Below the pieces are notes generated by a model that was not told the origin of the DNA, did not search any database, and worked only from the letters and a program-made list of their open reading frames with translations. Below, piece by piece: positions 24,572 through 50,735 of a DNA stretch of 64,000 nucleotides (its first letter is position 1; every line of letters begins with the position of its first letter). A program made the translations under genes and the position numbers. The DNA comes from Wenzhouxiangella sp. XN201 (GTDB lineage Bacteria; Pseudomonadota; Gammaproteobacteria; Xanthomonadales; Wenzhouxiangellaceae), in the NCBI RefSeq assembly GCF_011008905.1, contig NZ_JAAIVI010000017.1, positions 744,001-808,000 on the forward strand, given 5' to 3'.

Positions 24572-26013
24572 GTCAGACTACCGAACAGGTCCAGCACTAC
24601 ATCCAGCAGCGCTACAAGGCCGGGTTCTATACCGATATCGAATCCGATCGCGTGCCGGCCGGCCTGAACGAAGACATCATCGCCATGATTTCGGCCAAGA
24701 AGAACGAGCCGGAATGGCTGCTGGAATGGCGCCTGAAGGCCTTTCACCAGTGGCAGAAGATGGTCGGCCCGAACTGGGCGCATCTGAAGCTGCCGCCGAT
24801 CGATTTCCAGAAGATTCACTATTATTCGGCGCCGAAACAAAAGGACCGGCCGAAGAGTCTCGACGAAGTGGATCCCAAGCTGCTCGAGACCTTCGACAAG
24901 CTGGGCGTGCCGCTGCACGAGCGCGAGCGCCTGGCCGGCGTGGCCGTCGATGCGGTGTTCGATTCGGTTTCACTCGGCACCACTTTCCAGAAGGAACTGA
25001 AGGAAGCCGGCGTCATCTTCTGCAGCTTCTCCGAGGCCGTGCAGGAGCACCCCGACCTGGTGCGCGAGTACCTGGGATCGGTCGTACCCCATACCGACAA
25101 TTACTTTGCCGCGCTCAACTCGGCGGTGTTCACCGACGGGTCCTTCGTCTACATCCCGAAGAACACGCGCTGCCCGATGGAGTTGTCGACCTACTTCCGG
25201 ATCAATGCCCGCGATACGGGGCAGTTCGAGCGCACGCTGATCATTGCCGAGCCGGGCAGCCATGTCAGCTACCTGGAAGGCTGCACCGCGCCCATGCGCG
25301 ACGAAAATCAGCTGCACGCCGCCGTGGTCGAACTGGTGGCCAAGGAAAAGGCCCATATCAAGTACTCGACCGTCCAGAACTGGTACCCGGGCGACGAGAA
25401 CGGCAAGGGCGGCATCTATAATTTCGTGACCAAACGTGGAGACTGCCGCGAGGACGACGCGCGCATCACCTGGACGCAGGTCGAGACCGGTTCGGCCATT
25501 ACCTGGAAGTACCCGTCCTGCATTCTCCGGGGTGACCGGTCCTCGGGCGAGTTTTACTCGGTGGCACTGACGCGCAACTACCAGCAGGCCGATACCGGCA
25601 CCAAGATGATCCATCTGGGCAAGAACACCACCAGCAAGATCATCGCCAAGGGCATCTCGGCCGGCCACAGCAACAACAGCTACCGCGGCCTGGTGCGCAT
25701 GGCCAAACGGGCCGAGAACGCGCGCAACTATACGCAGTGCGATTCCCTGCTGATCGGCAAACAGTGCGGGGCGCATACTTTCCCCTACATCGAATCTTTC
25801 AACCCGACCGCAAAGGTCGAGCACGAGGCGACCACCTCGCGCATTGGCGAAGATCAGCTTTTCTACTGCCGCTCGCGCGGTCTGAGTGAAGAAGACTCGG
25901 TTGCCCTGATCGTCGACGGCTTCTGCAAGGAAGTCTTCAAGGAGCTGCCGATGGAATTCGCGGTGGAAGCCAAGGCGTTACTCGAGATCAGCCTGGAAGG
26001 TGCGGTCGGCTGA
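24568..26013 (+). CDS. sufB: Fe-S cluster assembly scaffold SufB
   Basis: This 481-residue protein is the usual SufB size and is highly typical along its length ([69 protein letters not shown]). With SufC and SufD it forms the cytoplasmic scaffold on which clusters are built. The C-terminal beta-helix residues, including the conserved Cys in CDSLLIG, are present. Its stop now overlaps the start of an inserted gene (TGATG), so sufC is separated from it by 463 bp. Confidence 0.97.
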
Positions 26014-26435
26014 TGAATGAGATCGCGAAACCGCAGATTGCGCAGATTCGCGCAGATTATGAATCTGGAAATGATCCGGAGTCGTATGCGGTGATCGGTG
26101 CAGCCATGGAAGTGCATCGGGCCTTGGGTCCGGGTTTTCTGGAGGCTGTTTACCAAGACGCGCTCGAGATTGAAATGCGGCAACGCGAAATCGAATTCAC
26201 TCGGGAAAGCGTACTTCCCGTCACTTACAAGGGCACGCCCTTGAGAACAACTTACAAGGCGGACTTCCTCTGCTTTGACTCGATGATTGTCGAATTGAAG
26301 GCAGTCAGTCACCTGGATTCAGTCCATGAAGCCCAGGTGATCAATTATCTGAAAGCGACCGGTCTGGAGAAAGGACTGCTGTTGAATTTCAAGGCCCGGT
26401 CACTTCAGTACAAAAGATTCGTCAATCAAACTTAA
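26013..26435 (+). CDS. GxxExxY protein (PD-(D/E)xK-like) carried by an inverted-repeat element
   Basis: This 140-residue protein has the name-giving motif G41-x2-E44-x2-Y47 (GFLEAVY) preceded by [13 protein letters not shown]. The nuclease-like core D84 ... E94-L-K96 ([17 protein letters not shown]) matches PD-(D/E)xK superfamily 3. The C-terminus ([16 protein letters not shown]) is typical of the family. The gene starts in the sufB stop, and residues 6-15 are translated from the left arm of the element. Its biochemical role is unknown. It has no link to Fe-S assembly, so it is read as an insertion within the suf operon. Confidence 0.85.
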
Positions 26436-30374: not shown

Positions 30375-31157
30375 TCAGAGGACCCGGAATCGCATGACCC
30401 GGTAGAACCCGCCAAAGATATCCACGTGTTCGTCGAGTTCGACTTCGCGACCTTCCTCGGCGGCACATGCCTTCAATGTTTCCACGAGGTCTTCGTTCCA
30501 GAAATCCCCGAGGAAGGGCTCGGCGGTGGTGAGAATCCAGCGCATGGGTGCGAAGCGGTGGAAGAAGTGGCGGCGTCGGACTTCGCCGTATTCGGCGATG
30601 ACGAAACGGCCGCCGGGACGAATCACGCGCAGGGCCTCGCGCAGGCTGTTGCGCCGCGCCCGGGGTGGCAGTTCGTGGATGAGCAGGAACATCAACGCGG
30701 TATCGAAGCTCTGGGCGCCGTACTCAAGTTGCTCGGCGTTCATGCGTTCAATCTTGGCCTTCAGCCCGGATGCTTCGAGTTTGCGCTCGGCGGCCCGGAT
30801 CTGGACCGGGGCGACTTCGGCCAGGTGCAGTTCATCGACCTCCGCGGCCAGGGTCGGCGTGAGCTTGCCGTAGACAGCCGCGATCTGGAGGGTCTTGCCG
30901 GCATTGGGGGCGTCCATCAGTCGCCGGGTCTCGTTCATGATGCGGCGGTAATTGCCGAAGAGAATGGCGTTGATGATGGGCTGGTGGTCGAAGAACCACA
31001 CCGCGATGGGCCATAAGTAGGCCCAGCGGTAGTAGCGGACGAGATAGTCCGGCAGGGACTTGTCGTCCCGCACCGGAGTTGGGAAGGCCGGAGCGGTAAT
31101 GGCGGTGGACCCGCCGCCCGCAGCGTCATGGCGGTACTCTAGTTTGCAGTTTTTCAT
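30375..31157 (-). CDS. rquA: RquA-like rhodoquinone biosynthesis methyltransferase
   Basis: This 260-residue class I SAM-binding protein aligns from memory with RquA along most of its length: DYLVRYYRWAYLWPIAVWFF, INAILFGNYRRI, TLQIAAVYGKLTP in place of the classic glycine motif, and FLLIHELPPRARRNSLREALRV. RquA converts ubiquinone to rhodoquinone, the low-potential carrier used with fumarate reductase. It is the last gene of the frdABCD run, 46 bp after frdD, with a GGAGA ribosome site. Some acidic positions differ from RquA as I recall it (Asn in RMNAEQ, Glu in LAEVAP), so a divergent relative with another quinone substrate is possible. Confidence 0.65.
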   Translation of the reverse strand: MKNCKLEYRHDAAGGGSTAITAPAFPTPVRDDKSLPDYLVRYYRWAYLWPIAVWFFDHQPIINAILFGNYRRIMNETRRLMDAPNAGKTLQIAAVYGKLTPTLAAEVDELHLAEVAPVQIRAAERKLEASGLKAKIERMNAEQLEYGAQSFDTALMFLLIHELPPRARRNSLREALRVIRPGGRFVIAEYGEVRRRHFFHRFAPMRWILTTAEPFLGDFWNEDLVETLKACAAEEGREVELDEHVDIFGGFYRVMRFRVL

Positions 31158-31203
31158 AATTCCGTCTCCACGGTGACCGACTCAGGGGTCGAAACTTTGC
31201 AAT

Positions 31204-31560
31204 TCATGGTGTCGGCAGCAGCGCATAAAGGAGCGCTATGGTGGCCAGCGCGGCCAGGCCGTAACACAGCCGGGCAACCAGCCGGCGCGCGCCGGAGCGG
31301 CGCACGCCCAGGTCCTGTAGCGTCATCCGCAGCCGGTGGGCGGCATGCCACAGGGGCAGCGCCAGCACGACCAGGATCGCGAGTTTGCCGACGGGATGGA
31401 CGACGAGAGCTTGCATACGAGCATGGGACAGCGCATCGGCGGGCAAAGCGCCGAGCGAGACGAGCAGGACGGCGAGCATCACAGCGGGCAACAGGAACGC
31501 CGCAACCGTGCCGCCGGCGGCGAATGGCAACCAGATGATTGGCTTGTTCGATCGCGCCAC
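31204..31560 (-). CDS. frdD: Fumarate reductase membrane anchor subunit D
   Basis: This 118-residue protein has three membrane helices (IIWLPFAAGGTVAAFLLPAV; VGKLAILVVLALPLWHAAH; LCYGLAALATIALLYAL), the size of E. coli FrdD (119). With FrdC it anchors the enzyme and forms the quinol site. The GTG at 31560 lies one base after the frdC stop, and the conserved start VARSNKPIIW supports it. Longer in-frame versions run antisense to the FrdC frame and are rejected. Confidence 0.9.
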   Translation of the reverse strand: MARSNKPIIWLPFAAGGTVAAFLLPAVMLAVLLVSLGALPADALSHARMQALVVHPVGKLAILVVLALPLWHAAHRLRMTLQDLGVRRSGARRLVARLCYGLAALATIALLYALLPTP

Positions 31561-31561
31561 G

Positions 31562-31951
31562 TTACACCCCCACCCAATAGAGTATGAAAAGGGACGCCAC
31601 GATCCAGGCCGCGTAATGGGCCAGCTCGATCCATCCCGACGGCATCCGGGTTTCGCCGATCCAGACGGGCATCGTGCTGGGCGCCAGCCGGAACCAGCTG
31701 ACCGTGTGATACAGCACGAACAGCAGTGCCACGAACTGGAAGATGATGCCCGGCGCCGACCCCAGCGTGTCGAGAAAGCCTTCCCAGGCATTCGGCCCCT
31801 GTCGGAGTCTGATCAGGCCGACAATGGCCATGCCAACCCAGGCGCCCACCCAGACGCAGGTCAGTTCCCGGATCATGTAGCGCAGGTAGCCGGGCCGGTC
31901 CAGCCACCAGAAGGTCGGCATTTCCGGACGCCAGGGGGTGGGTCCCTTCAT
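31562..31951 (-). CDS. frdC: Fumarate reductase membrane anchor subunit C
   Basis: This 129-residue protein with three membrane helices is close to E. coli FrdC in length. Residue 29 is Glu in MIRELTCVWVG, the position implicated in menaquinol oxidation in E. coli FrdC, and the ENxxAW-like GPNAWEGF segment is also kept. This marks the complex as the heme-free, two-anchor type of quinol:fumarate reductase rather than a succinate dehydrogenase with heme ligands. It overlaps the frdB stop by 4 bp (ATGA). Confidence 0.92.
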   Translation of the reverse strand: MKGPTPWRPEMPTFWWLDRPGYLRYMIRELTCVWVGAWVGMAIVGLIRLRQGPNAWEGFLDTLGSAPGIIFQFVALLFVLYHTVSWFRLAPSTMPVWIGETRMPSGWIELAHYAAWIVASLFILYWVGV

Positions 31952-32688
31952 GATTTGTCTCCGCGCTTCAAGGGCCGCGAGATCCAGTCCAGGGAGCTGG
32001 CCAGCTTCATCTGCTGGATCGCGCCGGCCGGGTCAACGCCCTTGGGGCAGACCTCCGAGCATTCGCCCACGAAGGTGCATTCCCAGATACCGTCTTCGCT
32101 GGCGGTGACTTCCTCGCGCTCGGCTCGCCCGCCGTCGCGTGAGTCCCGGTTGTAGCGGTGGGCCAGGGCGAGAATCGATGGGCCCAGGTAGTTTTCGTTC
32201 AGCCCCACCTGGGGGCAGGCCGCGTAGCACAGCAGGCAGTTGATGCACATGGTGAACTGACGGTATACGGCCAGTTCAGAAGACTGCTGCCGGAACACGT
32301 CCTCCTGGGGGGGTTCCACTTCGGGAATGAGGAAGGGCTTGACCGTCGGCAGCCGGGTGGCGAAAGTCTCCATGTCGCCGATCAGATCGCGGTGGACGGC
32401 CAGATTGGCCATGGGTGCCACACGCACCGTTTCCGGGTAATCGCGCAGAAAGGCCTTGCAGGCGAGTACCGGCTTGCCGTTGACCATCATGCCGCAGCTG
32501 CCGCAGACTGCCATGCGGCAGGACCAGCGGTAGCTCAGTGTTCCGTCGAGGTGGTCCTTGATGTAGTTGAGTGCGTCCAGCACCACCCAGTCTTCCCGGG
32601 CCGGGACGTCATAGCTTTCCCAGGTGGGCTCCGAATCCGTTTCCGGGCGGTAGCGCTGCACTTCCAGCCGAATGCGGCGTTCAGTCAT
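31948..32688 (-). CDS. frdB: Fumarate reductase iron-sulfur subunit B
   Basis: This 246-residue protein carries all three cluster motifs. The [2Fe-2S] set is [20 protein letters not shown] then AC, and the [4Fe-4S] and [3Fe-4S] sets are in [12 protein letters not shown] and [12 protein letters not shown]. The stretch [11 protein letters not shown] is diagnostic of FrdB. It passes electrons from quinol to FAD in FrdA. ATG 32688 has a GGAGGA ribosome site and overlaps the frdA stop by 8 bp. Confidence 0.95.
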
Positions 32689-34432
32689 CGCTCGTTCCTC
32701 CGTACACGCGTTCGGCGGGCTCCCAGCGTGTGATAGTGACCGGTTTGCGGGTGATTTCCGGTGGCCCGTCGCCGCGGAAGCCGGCCATGCTGTGGACCAG
32801 GAACTCACCGTCGTTGCGCTCGGGAAAGTCCAGGCGCTGGTGGGCACCGCGAGACTCGCGGCGCGTGCGTGCGGCATGCACCATGGCCTCGCCGATCTCG
32901 AGCATGGCGCCCAGTTCCAGGGCGTAAGCGAGTTCCGTGTTGAACACGCTGCTCTTGTCAGTAATACCAAGCTTTCCGTAGCGCCGTCGAAGCTCGCCGA
33001 TCCCATCGCAGGCCCGGTCGAGCCGCTCCTGGTCGCGGTAGATGCCGGCGCATTCTTCCATGTAACCGTTCAATTCATCGCGCAGGCCCGCTATGGTTTC
33101 CTCACCTGGCAATGTGTCGCGCAGGCGCTGGATACGGGACATGGCGGTGCCGGCCAGCGATTGTGCCAAGGCCTCGTCGGCCCGCTCGACCTTGGCAGTG
33201 GCCGCTGCGTTCTGGCCTGCGATGCGGCCGAAGACCAGAAGTTCCGTGAGCGAGTTCGAGCCCAGCCGGTTCGCGCCGTTGATGCTCACGCAGGCGCATT
33301 CTCCGGCCGCGTAAAGTCCGTCGACCGGGCTGGCCGCATCGATATCGGTGTCGATGCCGCCCATGGTGTAGTGGACGACCGGACGTACGGGGATGGGCTC
33401 GTGCACCGGGTCGACGGCGGCATAGATGCGCGCGAGTTCACGCACGAAGGGCAGGCGCTCGTTAATCTTCTTCTCGCCCAGATGGCGCACATCCAGCATC
33501 ACGACCTGGCCGGCAGCGTGATCGACCGTGCGGCCCTTCTGCTGTTCGTGCCAGAACGCCTGGCTGAGGCGGTCACGCGGCCCCAGTTCCATGGCTTTCT
33601 TGCGCGGCCAAGGGTCGGGCGGACCGAGGTTGTAGTCCTGCAGGTAGCGATAGCCGTCGCGGTTCACCAGGACCCCACCTTCGCCACGCGCGCCCTCTGT
33701 GATGAGGATGCCCGTGCCAGGCAGACCCGTAGGGTGGTACTGGACAAACTCCATGTCCTTGAGCGGCACCCCGGCGCGATAGGCCATGGCCATGCCGTCC
33801 CCGGTATTGATGCCGGCATTCGTGGTGAACGGGAAGGCGCGCCCGGCGCCCCCCGTGGCCATAACCACCGACGGCGCCAAGAAGACGACCGTCTCGCCGG
33901 TTTTCAACTCGATCGCTACGCAGCCCGTGCACCGGCCATCGGCCACCAGCAGATCCACCACGTAGTACTCGTCATAGCGGTGGATTGCGTCGTATTTGAG
34001 GGAGGTCTGGAAGAGCGTGTGCAGGATGTGGAAGCCGGACTTGTCGGCCGCATACCAGGTGCGCTCGATCTTCATGCCCCCGAAGGGGCGCACCGCGACC
34101 CGGCCGTCGGGCTGCCGGCTCCAGGGACAGCCCCAGTGTTCCAGTTCTCGCAGGGCACCGGGCGCTTCGGTGACGAACAGGTCCACGGCGTCCTGGTCGC
34201 AGAGCCAGTCTCCGCCGCTGACGGTGTCCCGGAAGTGGTTCTCCAGACTGTCGTCTTCGCCCGCAACGGCCGCCGCGCCACCTTCGGCGGCGACGGTGTG
34301 GCTGCGCATCGGGTAGACCTTGGACACCAGGGCGACATGCAGAGAAGGATCGGCCTCGGCGGCTGCAATCGCGGCCCGCAGACCCGCGCCACCGCCTCCG
34401 ATGATGACTACATCTGCATTAACGAGCCGCAT
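32681..34432 (-). CDS. frdA: Fumarate reductase flavoprotein subunit A
   Basis: This 583-residue flavoprotein has the FAD Rossmann start [14 protein letters not shown] and the FAD-linking His45 in [13 protein letters not shown]. The substrate-site runs are [32 protein letters not shown] and [15 protein letters not shown], with [12 protein letters not shown] near the C-terminus. The resemblance to E. coli FrdA is close throughout. It reduces fumarate to succinate as the terminal step of anaerobic respiration, or runs in reverse. It leads frdABCD-rquA and has an FNR-like promoter. Confidence 0.96.
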
Positions 34433-34507: not shown

Positions 34508-34556
34508 TGGGTGCACTATCACCCAGCCGTGGAAGTAGCCCGTTGATCTGGGTCAA
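34508..34556 (-). promoter_or_regulatory. FNR/ANR-type class II promoter for frdA
   Basis: On the minus strand TTGACCCAGATCAA (34543-34556) matches the FNR box TTGAT-N4-ATCAA with one change. The hexamer GATAGT (34515-34520) lies exactly where the -10 falls if the box is centred at -41.5, placing +1 near 34508 and a leader of about 76 bases. This is the geometry of an FNR-activated class II promoter. Confidence 0.55.
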
Positions 34557-34797: not shown

Positions 34798-34823
34798 AAA
34801 CCCCGCAACCAGCGGCTGCGGGG
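34791..34823 (-). terminator. Rho-independent terminator after the membrane-protein gene
   Basis: On the minus strand the stem CCCCGCA (34817-34823) pairs with TGCGGGG (34801-34807) around a 9-base loop and is followed by TTTTTTATTT. It lies 77 bp past the stop of the gene at 34900-35910. Confidence 0.88.
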
Positions 34824-34899
34824 CAGTTCGGTTTCTTGTTGTGGCAGGGCGATGCCCGGCAGGTTTACATCGTTCTTCTTCTGTTCGTTTTATTCGATA

Positions 34900-45941: not shown

Positions 45942-46997
45942 TCAGCGCATTCCCTCCTGCAGCGTTTTCAATGCCGCTGCTCCCGGGTTGAGTTCGTCGA
46001 ATGCGAACCGGGACAGTGGTTTTCGGGAAGTGCCCTGGATGGTGTGCAAGCTTGGCAAGTCTTCGTTCAGAAACAGCAGGCCGGTGAGAATTTCCTGGCG
46101 CTCATGAGCGGCTGCGAGGTGTCCCAGCACCTGCGCGCGGCTGGAAGGGTCGAAATCCTGATCGAGTTTCTTCAAGCGAATGACTGAACCGTCGTGTAAT
46201 TCGACGTCGGATACTTCCCCTTCGGCATAGTCCACCTCGATCTCGGTCGATGGTGCCACGTAATCGGTCTCGATGGCCGCGTGCAGGTGCTGACGGGTCC
46301 AGGCGTAGGACTTGGTCGAGCCTTCGTGGTCGTTGAAGGTCACGCACGGCGAGATGACGTCGATAACAGCGCAGCCGGGGTGCCGGAGGCCGGCCTTGAT
46401 CAGCGGAACGAGTTGCTCCTTGTCACCGGAGAACGAGCGCGCCACGAAGCTGCCGCCAAGCGAGATAGCGGTTGTGACGGGGTCGATGGCCTGATTTCTG
46501 TTTTCGAGGCCCTTCTTGGTCTTGCTGCCCGGGTCGGCCGAAGCCGAGAACTGCCCCTTGGTCAGACCGTAGACGCCGTTGTTTTCAATGATATAGAGCA
46601 CGTTCAGGTTGCGCCGCACTGCGTGCGCGAACTGGCCAAAGCCGATCGACAACGAGTCACCGTCGCCGGAAATGCCGATCGCGATCAGGTCGCGTCGTGC
46701 AGCCTGGGCGCCCGTGGCCACCGAGGGCATGCGTCCGTGTACCGAGTTGAAGCCATGTGCCCCGGACAGGAAATAGGCCGGCGTCTTGGAAGAACACCCG
46801 ATACCCGATAGTTTGATGACCTGTTCGGGTTTCAAGGCCAATTCCCAGAATGCCTTGACCAGCGCCGCGGTAATCGAGTCGTGACCGCAACCGGCGCACA
46901 GCGTTGATAGACCACCTTCGTAGTCGGCCAGCGTCAATCCCAGTTCGTTGGTCTGTCGCCCGCTCCATTTGACTTTCGGTTTGGTGATGTAGCTCAT
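45942..46997 (-). CDS. korB: 2-oxoacid:ferredoxin oxidoreductase beta subunit (KorB)
   Basis: This 351-residue TPP-binding subunit has CAGCGHDSI, IGCSSKTPAYF, the GDGDSLSIG ... NNGVYGLTKGQ thiamine-diphosphate motif, and DVISPCVTFNDHEGSTKSY. Family members oxidise 2-oxoglutarate (or pyruvate) to the acyl-CoA with ferredoxin, reversibly. Its ATG overlaps the korA stop by 4 bp. The closest recall match is the 2-oxoglutarate type, but the substrate is not proven by sequence. Confidence 0.9.
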   Translation of the reverse strand: MSYITKPKVKWSGRQTNELGLTLADYEGGLSTLCAGCGHDSITAALVKAFWELALKPEQVIKLSGIGCSSKTPAYFLSGAHGFNSVHGRMPSVATGAQAARRDLIAIGISGDGDSLSIGFGQFAHAVRRNLNVLYIIENNGVYGLTKGQFSASADPGSKTKKGLENRNQAIDPVTTAISLGGSFVARSFSGDKEQLVPLIKAGLRHPGCAVIDVISPCVTFNDHEGSTKSYAWTRQHLHAAIETDYVAPSTEIEVDYAEGEVSDVELHDGSVIRLKKLDQDFDPSSRAQVLGHLAAAHERQEILTGLLFLNEDLPSLHTIQGTSRKPLSRFAFDELNPGAAALKTLQEGMR

Positions 46998-48829
46998 GCC
47001 ACGGCTCCCTGTCTGATGTGCTCGGTAACGGACTCAACAATTACATCGGACGGTACCGGCAATCCGTTGTAGTGCAGGATCGAGATCAATTTGTCCGGGT
47101 CCGCGTCGAGTTCTAGCATCAGCAAGCCGCGCATCTGAGCGTCGCGGTTCTGCTCGAGCACGAATACCAGCCGGTGCTGGTCGAGAAACTTTTCCACTTC
47201 CTTGCCGAATGGAAATGCGCGTAACCGCAGGTAGTCTGCATCGACACCTTCGGCGGCCAGCCGATCCAGCGCCTCGACTGTGGCACCATGCGACGAGCCG
47301 AACGCAATGATGCCGACATCGGTATGGCCGCGTGCGGAGCGGAGGACAGCATCGGGGACCAACGTCTTTGCGGTCTGCCATTTCAATCGGAGTCGATCGA
47401 CGACCTGCTGGTATTCATCGGCATCCTCCGTGTAGCGGCCGTACTGGTCATGACCGGATCCTCTGACGAAGTAGCTGCCCTTGGGGTGAGACCCCGGAAG
47501 CGTGCGGTATGGGATTCCGTCACCGTCTACATCCAGATAGCGGTGGAACTGGTCGATTCGAGTCAGATCTTCGTCGGTCAGAACCTTGCCGCGGTCGGGC
47601 CGGTAACTGTCGTCCCATTCGAGCTCATCGACCATCCACTCGTTCATGCCGATGTCAAGGTCGGACAGTACGAACACCGGCGTCTGAAGGCGTTCAGCGA
47701 GATCGAATGCGGCCACGGCCATCTCGAAACACTCCTTCGGGTCGGACGGCAGTAGCACCGGGTGGCGGGTGTCGCCATGCGAGGCGTATGCGGCGGTCAT
47801 CAAGTCGCACTGCTGCGTTCGGGTCGGCATGCCGGTCGAAGGCCCGACACGTTGGATGTCGAAAAACACGGCCGGGATTTCGGTGTAGTAAGCGAAACCA
47901 ATGAACTCGCTCATCAGCGAAATGCCCGGTCCGGATGTGGGCGTGAAAGCACGCGCGCCGGCCCATCCGGCCCCCAGTACCATGCCGGCTGCAGCCAGCT
48001 CATCCTCAGCCTGGATGATGCAGAAGCGGTTCTCGCCGGTTTCGGGATCCTTGCGGAATTTGTTGCAAAAGTTCTCAAACGCGTCCATCAGGGAGGTCGA
48101 CGGTGTGATCGGATACCAGGCGCCGACCGTCGCGCCGGCGTACAGGCAGCCCAGCGCCGCAGCAGCATTGCCCTCGATCAGAATCTTGCCGCCGGTGCCG
48201 TCCATTGGCGCGGCACGGACCCGGAGCGGACAGTCGAAGTGCTCGCGCGCATAGTCGTATCCCAGCGTGACGGCCTTGAAGTTTGGCTCGACCAGCTTTG
48301 GCTTGGCGGCAAAGGTTTCTTCGAGCAGCTTGCGCACGATTTCACGATCAATCTGCATCAGCGCACACAGAGCGCCGACATAGGCGATGTTCTTCATCAG
48401 GGTCCGGATGGGGGCGGCCGTTCTGACGCGAGCGCTCTCGAAATTCGCGTTGACCATCCCGGACAGCGGAATGCCGAGTACGTGCACACCTTCGCGCTGG
48501 AGTTGCGACTCCCGGGGCCAGGTCGAGTCGTAGATCAGGTAGCCGCCTTCACCCACTTCAGCCAGGTCCCTGGCATAGGTCTGGGCGTTCATCGCCACCA
48601 TCACGTCGACTCTTGAAACCCGCGCGTTGTAGCCCTCGCGGCTTGCGCGAATCTCGTACCAGGTCGGCAAGCCCTGGATATTGGATGGAAACAGGTTTTT
48701 TCCCGTGACGGGGATACCCATCCGGAACAGTGCCTTCATCAAGAGACCATTCGCGCTCGCCGAACCGCTGCCGTTGACCGTGGCGATCTTGAGGACGAAG
48801 TCATTGATCTGCGCGTTGCCTGTAGCCAT
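46994..48829 (-). CDS. korA: 2-oxoacid:ferredoxin oxidoreductase gamma-alpha subunit (KorA)
   Basis: This 611-residue fusion has the gamma domain first (IATVNGSGSASANGLLMKAL) and then the alpha/pyrimidine domain (GATVGAWYPITPSTSLMDAF, TPTSGPGISLMSEFIG). It works with KorB. ATG 48829 has an AGGGAA ribosome site; an upstream extension in frame is without homology. It follows the FAD/ferredoxin gene by 97 bp. The trio resembles the three-gene NADP-linked 2-oxoglutarate oxidoreductase described in Azoarcus/Magnetospirillum. Confidence 0.9.
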   Translation of the reverse strand: MATGNAQINDFVLKIATVNGSGSASANGLLMKALFRMGIPVTGKNLFPSNIQGLPTWYEIRASREGYNARVSRVDVMVAMNAQTYARDLAEVGEGGYLIYDSTWPRESQLQREGVHVLGIPLSGMVNANFESARVRTAAPIRTLMKNIAYVGALCALMQIDREIVRKLLEETFAAKPKLVEPNFKAVTLGYDYAREHFDCPLRVRAAPMDGTGGKILIEGNAAAALGCLYAGATVGAWYPITPSTSLMDAFENFCNKFRKDPETGENRFCIIQAEDELAAAGMVLGAGWAGARAFTPTSGPGISLMSEFIGFAYYTEIPAVFFDIQRVGPSTGMPTRTQQCDLMTAAYASHGDTRHPVLLPSDPKECFEMAVAAFDLAERLQTPVFVLSDLDIGMNEWMVDELEWDDSYRPDRGKVLTDEDLTRIDQFHRYLDVDGDGIPYRTLPGSHPKGSYFVRGSGHDQYGRYTEDADEYQQVVDRLRLKWQTAKTLVPDAVLRSARGHTDVGIIAFGSSHGATVEALDRLAAEGVDADYLRLRAFPFGKEVEKFLDQHRLVFVLEQNRDAQMRGLLMLELDADPDKLISILHYNGLPVPSDVIVESVTEHIRQGAVA

Positions 48830-48926
48830 GCTGTTCCCTAGAGTCTCAAGGGGTCTTGTGAAAGGATCGTCGGCTGGTTTCAGCCCGCTCGCCTGAGGTC
48901 TGTGTAATCCGTGGCCTGCATCTGGA

Positions 48927-50735
48927 TCAAGACCCGACCTTTGCCTTTGCCACTGGCTTGGCGTCGTGGTCCCGGGCGTACGGAATGCGAAGTGTCGATT
49001 TCTGCATGTCCCACGCGGCGGTGGGACAACGCTCGGCGCACAGGCCGCAGTGGACGCAGACGTTTTCATCCTTGACCATGATGCGGCCGGTCTGCTTGAG
49101 TTGGTCCGAAATGAACAGGGGCTGCTCCGGTTCCTGGCGCGGTGCGGTCAGGCAAGCTTCAACCGCTTCCTGCTCGCCGTTGGCGGTGATGGTCAAACAC
49201 TGGGTCGGGCAGATGTCGATGCAGGCATCGCATTCGATGCAAAGCGAATCGGTGAATACCGTCTGGACATCGCAATTCAGGCAGCGCTCGACCTCGCAGG
49301 CAGTCTGCTCGGCGGTAAAACCAAGTTCCACTTCGGTATTGAGCTCGCGGAAACGCTCGGTCAGTGGCACATGTTCCATCTTGCGACGCGCAGCCGGATC
49401 AAAATAGTTCGAGTAGCTCCACTCGTGTATGCCCATCTTGCGTGAGCCCAGGTTCATGGTCTGCGGCAGTCGGGCGTTGATGTCTTCGCCGTGGCAATGC
49501 TTATGGATGGAAATCGCGGCCTGGTGACCGTGCTCGACGGCCCAGATGATGTTTTCCGGGCCGAATGCCGCATCACCGCCGAAGAACACGCCCGGTAGCG
49601 TGGACTGATAGGTGCTGCGATCGCAATCCGGTTCGTCCCATTGGTTGAACTCGATGCCGAGGTCGCGCTCGATCCACGGAAAAGCCGTTTCCTGGCCGAT
49701 CGCCAGAATGACGTCATCGGCCTCCAAAAATTCTTCCCCGGTTACCCGGGAATCGGTGATGCGGCCATCCGAGATGTCGTATTCCATGATTTCGAAAATC
49801 ATGCCCTGAAGCTGGCCATCCCTGACGACGAATTCTTTCGGGCTGCGGTTGATGACGATCTCGACCTGTTCTTCCTCGGCATCTTCGAGTTCCCAGTCCG
49901 AGGCCTTGAAGAATTGCCGCGGCTTGCGTGCCATGACCTTGACGTCATCGGCCCCCAGCCGCAGGCTGGTGCGGCAGCAATCCATCGCGGTGTTGCCGAC
50001 GCCGATAATCAGAACCTTCTTGCCGATTTCTTTCGTGTGCCCGAAAGCCACTGACTCGAGCCAGTCGATGCCGATGTGAATGCTGGCGTCGCCTTCACTG
50101 CGACCCGGAATATCGAGCTCCTTGCCGCGCGGTGCGCCCGAGCCGACGAAGATCGCGTCATAGCCCTGGTCCAGTAGGGACTTCATCGAATCGACCGGAG
50201 TATTCAGGCGCAGATCCACGCCCATGCGGAGAATGTATTCGATCTCCTCGTCCAGGACCTTCTGCGGTAGCCGGAATGCCGGGATGTTGGACCGCATCAG
50301 TCCGCCGGTTTTGCCGAGTTTCTCGAAAAGTGTGCACTGGTAGCCGAGCGGCAACAGGTCATTGCATACCGTCAGCGAGGCCGGGCCGGCACCGACCAGC
50401 GCGATGCGCTTGCCATTGTGGTGCTTCGGGATCGTTGGTAGCCGTTCGGTGATGTCGTCGCGGTGATCGGCTGCGACGCGTTTCAGACGGCAGATGGCGA
50501 CCGGTTTTTCATCGATGCGGCTGCGCCTGCAAGCCGGTTCGCATGGCCGGTCGCAGACCCGGCCCAGAATACCGGGAAATACGTTAGACTCACGATTAAC
50601 CATGTAGGCGTCGGAAAATCGCCCCTGGGCGATCAGCCGGATGTATTCGGGAACGTCGGTGTGTGCTGGACAACCCCACTGGCAATCGACCACCTTGTGG
50701 TAGTAATCGGGGTTTTGAGTATCGGTCGGCTTCAT
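48927..50735 (-). CDS. korC: FAD pyridine-nucleotide oxidoreductase with ferredoxin domain (KorC-like)
   Basis: This 602-residue protein has a GltD-like N-terminus with Cys-rich helices (VCDRPCEPACRR). An FAD/NAD(P) Rossmann pair follows (ALVGAGPASLTVCNDLLPLG; VLIIGVGNTAMDC). Two C-terminal [4Fe-4S] motifs follow (CIECDACIDICP; CVHCGLCAERCP). It can shuttle electrons between the KorAB ferredoxin centre and NAD(P). The ATG at 50735 is used; a TTG six bases earlier is unlikely. It is divergent from truB. Confidence 0.85.
   Translation of the reverse strand: MKPTDTQNPDYYHKVVDCQWGCPAHTDVPEYIRLIAQGRFSDAYMVNRESNVFPGILGRVCDRPCEPACRRSRIDEKPVAICRLKRVAADHRDDITERLPTIPKHHNGKRIALVGAGPASLTVCNDLLPLGYQCTLFEKLGKTGGLMRSNIPAFRLPQKVLDEEIEYILRMGVDLRLNTPVDSMKSLLDQGYDAIFVGSGAPRGKELDIPGRSEGDASIHIGIDWLESVAFGHTKEIGKKVLIIGVGNTAMDCCRTSLRLGADDVKVMARKPRQFFKASDWELEDAEEEQVEIVINRSPKEFVVRDGQLQGMIFEIMEYDISDGRITDSRVTGEEFLEADDVILAIGQETAFPWIERDLGIEFNQWDEPDCDRSTYQSTLPGVFFGGDAAFGPENIIWAVEHGHQAAISIHKHCHGEDINARLPQTMNLGSRKMGIHEWSYSNYFDPAARRKMEHVPLTERFRELNTEVELGFTAEQTACEVERCLNCDVQTVFTDSLCIECDACIDICPTQCLTITANGEQEAVEACLTAPRQEPEQPLFISDQLKQTGRIMVKDENVCVHCGLCAERCPTAAWDMQKSTLRIPYARDHDAKPVAKAKVGS

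Follow-up and report, generated by a model that had tools for sequence, protein, structure and literature searches.

A fumarate reductase (FRD) operon with a fifth gene was analyzed within a stretch of 64,000 nucleotides from Wenzhouxiangella sp. XN201 (contig NZ_JAAIVI010000017.1, positions 744,001 to 808,000; the whole stretch is referred to as the window, and coordinates count from its first nucleotide). The genome assembly (3.13 Mb) is 97.9% complete. On the minus strand, from position 34432 to 30375, the window contains frdA-frdB-frdC-frdD followed by an RquA-like gene for a class I S-adenosylmethionine (SAM) enzyme. The first four genes encode the flavoprotein FrdA (32681..34432, 583 aa), the iron-sulfur subunit FrdB (31948..32688, 246 aa), the small membrane anchor FrdC of the Escherichia coli kind (31562..31951, 129 aa) and the second membrane anchor FrdD (31204..31560, 118 aa, GTG start), and the fifth gene (30375..31157) encodes a protein of 260 aa. 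Along the direction from frdA to the RquA-like gene the intergenic spacings are −8 and −4 bp (overlaps of 8 and 4 bp), +1 bp and +46 bp, which bears out an earlier note on this DNA that had described five same-strand genes with overlaps or gaps of at most 46 bp; the five genes are a real operon. The identical five-gene order is found in Wenzhouxiangella sp. 15190 (locus L118), where it is likewise flanked by a suf-like operon (identified by eye) and, at the opposite end, by a 336-residue open reading frame (ORF) without Pfam match. The two species share 92% (FrdA), 92% (FrdB), 85% (FrdC), 86% (FrdD) and 82% (RquA-like protein) identity, and the conserved order indicates that the arrangement is more than chance. 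The genome G011 of the genus encodes an RquA-like protein identical to that of Wenzhouxiangella sp. 15190.

The fumarate reductase subunits were compared with curated models and solved structures. FrdA (945 bits on NF006686, cut-off 854), FrdB (350 bits on NF009051, cut-off 333) and FrdD (88.7 bits on NF003977, cut-off 60; 104 bits on PF02313) pass the NCBIfam equivalog cut-offs, and FrdC lies under the NCBIfam cut-offs (76.2 vs. 143 bits) but over that of the Pfam family Fumarate_red_C (PF02300, 115.8 vs. 24.2 bits). Among solved structures, the E. coli fumarate reductase is the closest match to each of the four subunits (1kf6 chains; E = 4.2e-227 for FrdA on 1kf6_A and 1.5e-83 for FrdB on 1kf6_B, with FrdC and FrdD aligned to 1kf6_C and 1kf6_D). 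In these alignments FrdA retains His45, FrdB retains Lys228, FrdC retains Arg28, Glu29, His82, and Trp86, and a tryptophan of FrdD aligns with the one near the E. coli FrdD N terminus; all of these except FrdA His45 are presumably quinol-site residues. The close resemblance to the E. coli enzyme that the earlier note had based on FrdA His45 and FrdC Glu29 is thus confirmed, since both align with the same E. coli residues. Judged from its sequence, FrdABCD is an E. coli-type quinol:fumarate reductase with the quinone-site residues kept. The operon has the same subunits, gene order, and quinone-site residues as that of E. coli but adds the fifth gene, in a host in which no menaquinone marker was found. 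The FrdC His82 position is histidine in all nine rquA-linked FrdC proteins that were read and asparagine in three other Wenzhouxiangella FrdC proteins. The latter belong to a different frdABCD lineage (loci L205, L206, and L207 of genomes G006, G016, and G012; FrdA identity 57% in the two contigs holding frdA), and no RquA-like gene was found in these genomes; at L205 and L207 an ORF resembling zinc alcohol dehydrogenase (by eye) adjoins frd.

RquA uses SAM and Mn2+ to convert ubiquinone into rhodoquinone. The best curated match of the fifth protein is RquA (NF038261), the cut-off of which (175 bits) it passes marginally (177.0 bits), and the orthologue in Wenzhouxiangella sp. 15190 lies under it (171.9 bits). 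The scores on this model are bimodal among 369 genomes of the class: eleven genomes score 225–318 bits (clade A) and 26, including that of the window, score 143–183 bits (clade B), with the next score below at 71.7 bits. A sample of 398 genomes of the phylum contains 45 clade A and 30 clade B genomes, three B-like fragments (G591, G592, and G608; 90–93 bits) being left uncounted here and in the UbiU count of family f217 below. The window protein has a median identity of 45% with clade B proteins and 34% with clade A proteins.

Of 165 candidate rows for the phylogenetic analysis, L019 (without a match), L193 (insufficient length), and seven duplicates were excluded. A quick tree of 89 rows included every FRD-linked row and roughly half of the remaining clade A and clade B rows, and a careful tree of 53 rows omitted seven long-branch rows and, again, roughly half of those without FRD linkage. 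Clades A and B are jointly monophyletic relative to the ordinary methyltransferases (support 100/100), as is clade A by itself (100/99). The unity of clade B is not supported by the trees, and clade A may have arisen within it. Four FRD-linked proteins (L119, L122, L135, and L166) form a clade (100/99). A larger FRD-linked subclade that also holds the proteins of the window and G011 appeared in the quick tree (SH-aLRT 97); the careful tree, with its other sampling, did not recover it (p-AU = 0.378 in the approximately unbiased test, unrejected), and it is therefore not relied on. By score and tree placement, the fifth protein is assigned to clade B, a group sister to RquA, and the enzyme should be named RquA-like rather than RquA until it is assayed.

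Residues were compared across clade A (41 rows), clade B (99 rows), and the ordinary methyltransferases aligned (up to 17). This comparison yielded 21 RquA-specific positions, where one residue is shared by ≥90% of the A and B rows and occurs in <30% of the ordinary methyltransferases. The window protein carries all 21, among them Tyr38, Tyr43, Trp45, Tyr47, Gln91, Tyr96, Gln119, Lys126, His161, Glu162, Pro164, Arg168, Tyr190, and Tyr252. Its SAM motif I is disrupted (LQIAAVYG), with Gln91 and Tyr96 as in 41/41 clade A rows; the ordinary methyltransferases that were aligned have aspartate at the position of Gln91 and mostly threonine at that of Tyr96. In two FRD-linked relatives (L135 and L166) His161 is replaced by asparagine.

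The linkage of clade B genes to fumarate reductase was examined in 80 named loci (L118–L197), which are the best 80 of at least 512 confirmed relatives and thus a sample biased towards the protein of the window. Adjacency was counted by tblastn of the five proteins, in place of a crude gene finder that missed the RquA-like gene in five of the loci (L118, L120, L135, L157, and L185). Fumarate reductase genes adjoin the clade B gene in 9/80 loci. The order frdABCD-rquA of the window is found at L118 and the order rquA-frdABCD in two metagenome-assembled genomes (MAGs) of the Lysobacterales (L119 and L122), and in four MAGs of the Burkholderiaceae (L154, L168, L185, and L190) a divergent frd operon lies 533–704 bp away (L168 leaves its contig after frdB). 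Two further Lysobacterales MAGs (L135, identified with equivalog models, and L166, by ORFs and similarity) contain rquA followed by the cytochrome b anchor gene frdC, frdA, and frdB, an arrangement that we take to be of the Wolinella type. Overall, the linkage of clade B to fumarate reductase requires three changes on one tree and four on the other. Clade A shows the order frdABCD-rquA as well (L077 and L078), and two of the eleven clade A genomes in the class sample have adjacent fumarate reductase genes, several contigs being short. Few genomes of the class (11/369) encode an E. coli-type FrdC; it is present in 4/37 carriers of clade A or B and in 7/332 other genomes (p = 0.017), and among clade B carriers alone in 2/26 (p = 0.13). 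One of the clade B genomes (G269) has its E. coli-type FrdC on a separate contig.

A different neighborhood is shared by five gammaproteobacterial MAGs (L136, titled Chromatiales, L139, L145, L150, and L187), where the genes after the RquA-like gene encode a conserved protein of ∼260 residues without Pfam match, then subunits of a 2-oxoacid:ferredoxin oxidoreductase and a Fer4_20/Pyr_redox_2 protein.

The earlier note had suggested that the organism may lack menaquinone, and a search of the window genome agrees: it yielded no MenD over the cut-off and no MqnA. MenD over the cut-off was also absent from all 66 clade A or B carriers tested (window genome included, G650 left out). Equivalogs of UbiU and UbiV, of the O2-independent ubiquinone pathway, are present in the window genome, and the U32 family was found in 5/19 genus genomes searched, including both carriers of the RquA-like gene (the window genome and G011). 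Among 25 genus genomes searched, a single one contained MenD over the cut-off (G014:C183:1198-2571, 413.8 bits); that genome, which is 73% complete, yielded no E. coli-type FrdC.

A motif scan identified an FNR-like box (TTGAT-N4-ATCAA with one mismatch, 34543..34556) 110 bp upstream of the frdA start. No other site in the window matches this motif with one mismatch or none, and windows shuffled by single bases contain 0.5 sites of this quality per 64 kb. Wenzhouxiangella sp. 15190 has a perfect site 102 bp upstream of frdA, in a short conserved patch of a poorly conserved stretch, and a further site (one mismatch) lies 62 bp upstream of ubiU in the window genome. On the minus strand, a terminator-like hairpin (34800..34824) 3′ of the upstream ORF (35910-34900) may part that ORF from the frd unit; it is a weak candidate, with six such hairpins in the region compared with 3.1 expected from shuffles.

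Taken together, the operon is probably a fumarate reductase coupled to a low-potential quinone, itself probably rhodoquinone, that is made by a divergent relative of RquA. This interpretation draws on the operon layout and its conservation in Wenzhouxiangella sp. 15190, the fumarate reductase type and quinone-site residues, the kinship to RquA, the lack of detectable MenD and MqnA, the presence of UbiU and UbiV, the FNR-like boxes in both species, and the repeated pairing with two fumarate reductase anchor types. The five genes would constitute an anaerobically induced respiratory operon in which the fifth protein makes the low-potential quinone from ubiquinone, most likely by exchanging a methoxy group for an amino group derived from SAM to give rhodoquinone, and in which FrdABCD reduces fumarate with electrons of the low-potential quinol. 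We infer that the fifth protein aminates ubiquinone, that FrdABCD oxidizes rhodoquinol, and that FNR regulates the operon. The proposal of the earlier note that the operon pairs the terminal reductase with synthesis of its own carrier stands as far as a fumarate reductase operon with a relative of RquA, no detectable MenD or MqnA, UbiU and UbiV, and an FNR-like box are concerned, and has to be modified in that the fifth gene lies outside the main RquA clade.

Several observations weigh against this interpretation. The window protein resembles RquA of the Rhodospirillum rubrum type (NF038261) in its SAM-enzyme branch, odd motif I, 21 shared positions, linkage to respiratory genes and a host in which no menaquinone marker was found, but it differs in falling into clade B, in its distance from clade A, in a score near the cut-off and in residues that are conserved in clade A. 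A placement within clade A is rejected (lnL 35.3 lower, p-AU = 0.0103), so that the RquA-like reading of the fifth gene in the earlier note holds for the best curated match and for the kinship but not for membership in the main RquA clade. At the key acidic positions, which the earlier note had singled out for inspection, the window protein has Glu114 in place of Asp118 of R. rubrum RquA (aspartate in 97/99 clade B and 41/41 clade A rows) and Asn140 in place of Asp143 (aspartate in 40/41 clade A rows; asparagine in 88/99 and aspartate in 11/99 clade B rows), both mapped by motif spacing without the R. rubrum sequence. Asparagine is present at the latter position in 11/17 of the ordinary methyltransferases aligned and need therefore not abolish SAM binding. 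A YH-P motif, an unpublished criterion drawn from the present alignment, has its histidine and its proline in 41/41 clade A rows each and is absent from the window protein, which carries Gly191 and Val193 instead; in clade B the histidine position is glycine in 58/99 and alanine in 34/99 rows. To our knowledge, no clade B protein has been assayed. One study reports that R. rubrum RquA carrying both D118A and D143A formed no rhodoquinone (PMC9814641). In another, an rquA from Desulfobacterota gave no rhodoquinone in E. coli (PMC13386864), which indicates that homology alone is not enough for rhodoquinone synthesis. The earlier note had held that a position outside the RquA clade with key residues missing, or a complete menaquinone pathway together with undetected rhodoquinone, would refute its proposal; the former was largely found, and no menaquinone marker was.

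The distribution data point in the same unfavorable direction. In the class sample, where several contigs are short, fumarate reductase genes adjoin the clade B gene in one of 26 genomes, that of the window itself. UbiU accompanies the rhodoquinone genes in 73/84 published cases, according to the available text of a survey (PMC11707229). In the class sample UbiU is present in 9/11 clade A carriers, 9/26 clade B carriers (one of them partial and under the cut-off), and 75/332 non-carriers, which places clade B near background (p = 0.23) and speaks against a general rhodoquinone role for the group; in family f217, which we equate with Zetaproteobacteria because that class accounts by title for 14 of the 80 named clade B loci, the counts are 2/28 clade B carriers and 1/35 non-carriers. 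The idea that clade B tracks the O2-independent ubiquinone pathway as RquA does was therefore rejected. Finally, FNR-like sites are not rare: the 1.23 Mb of the 80 related loci contain 99 that deviate from the motif by one mismatch at most, including six perfect ones, and no box with at most two mismatches was found upstream of ten other FRD-linked loci.

These observations bear on three alternative explanations. The fifth protein might modify ubiquinone otherwise, by methylation or a different amination, with FrdABCD using the product and clade B being chemically distinct from RquA. The asparagine at the Asp143 position, the loss of the clade A histidine and proline, the placement outside clade A, the prevalence of clade B in iron-oxidizer lineages (see below), and the missing UbiU link in family f217 would all fit such a chemistry, but the protein retains the RquA-type motif I (Gln91 and Tyr96) and His161-Glu162, and one would expect reversion to a methyltransferase to bring back the usual motif I; we regard this alternative as unlikely. 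It is very improbable that the gene accompanies the operon by chance and encodes a methyltransferase that plays no part in fumarate respiration: the 46-bp gap, its presence in only 2/30 genus genomes searched and the single adjacency among the clade B genomes of the class would be expected of a passenger, but not a linkage to fumarate reductase that occurs in several arrangements with two reductase types, requires three or four changes on the trees and is kept in two species.

Alternatively, the fumarate reductase could run with ubiquinol, or act as a succinate dehydrogenase or a fumarate sink, so that rhodoquinone would not be needed. Complex II can work in both directions, as stated in the accessible part of one paper (PMC10238741), but the FRD-type sequence, the E. 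coli-like quinone site, the linked RquA-like gene, and the FNR-like box make this alternative quite improbable. Coupling of the fumarate reductase to a low-potential quinone made by the fifth protein remains the explanation that we favor.

Parts of this arrangement have precedents. That bacterial rquA genes are linked or close to those of complex II is already in print, with an operon suggested, in the portion of the 2018 study available (Stairs 2018, PMC5953543), and the genetic proximity is the same as in the window. The seven orders named there do not include the Lysobacterales, Nitrosomonadales, or Zetaproteobacteria, so that clade B appears to lie outside that survey as far as this portion goes. 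The gammaproteobacterium Ca. Thiosymbion oneisti, said to lack menaquinone, has frdABCD and a putative rhodoquinone gene like the window, but the accessible text does not state that frdABCD and rquA are adjacent (PMC8269255). The combination of E. coli-type frdABCD and rquA is thus less unusual than the earlier note had supposed, given these two reports, in the parts available, and the frdABCD-rquA order in clade A.

Among the best 80 of the at least 512 relatives, 14 loci belong by title to the Zetaproteobacteria and 20 to Gallionella, Sideroxydans, and kin (34/80 together). We take these lineages to be iron oxidizers, which fits the record titles. In Gallionella, MreB, MreC, and MreD are encoded near the clade B genes and the neighbors identified there are housekeeping genes; two neighbors of ∼500 and 484 residues that had been considered as complex I subunits were rejected as such, the Pfam matches being GatB and amidase. 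The prevalence in iron-oxidizer lineages and the near-background frequency of UbiU suggest that clade B overall may have a function or setting different from anaerobic fumarate respiration. A search of the open-access literature, with most subscription papers outside it, found no joint report of rhodoquinone and Mariprofundus, matches for rhodoquinone and “iron oxidation” only on Acetobacteraceae and Rhodopila, and for rquA, methyltransferase, and Gallionella only a match on nucleoid proteins of Acidithiobacillia. Tentatively, and with appreciable doubt, clade B could be a second, unrecognized group of rhodoquinone synthases (RquA type II) that was recruited beside both FrdABCD and cytochrome b-type FrdCAB and is widespread in microaerophilic Fe(II) oxidizers (relatives of Mariprofundus, Gallionella, and Sideroxydans), where rhodoquinone might serve another purpose than fumarate respiration, for example pushing electrons uphill to NAD.

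Two further features of the window lie outside the operon. A PDDEXK_3 gene (26013-26435) with a lower third-position GC content (0.58) is located between sufB and sufC (named by eye), which are separated by 463 bp in the window and by ∼170 bp in Wenzhouxiangella sp. 15190; the shorter spacing makes the gene look inserted. The gene at 46994-49069 codes for a 2-oxoacid:ferredoxin oxidoreductase protein with PF01558 and PF01855 domains.

The part worth testing is the existence of a second RquA-type group that is repeatedly paired with fumarate reductases and is common in iron-oxidizer lineages, and the operon provides a contextual clue to its function. Rhodoquinone producers are counted by the presence of rquA. 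A survey of 4107 Pseudomonadota species reports, in its accessible part, the rhodoquinone pathway in 84 genomes with only one gammaproteobacterium (PMC11707229). If clade B makes rhodoquinone, the 84-genome count would be too low and iron oxidizers would become candidate producers. Furthermore, the unusual chemistry by which RquA transfers an amino group may become easier to map with two naturally occurring types of sequence that diverge at a few positions that are otherwise invariant.

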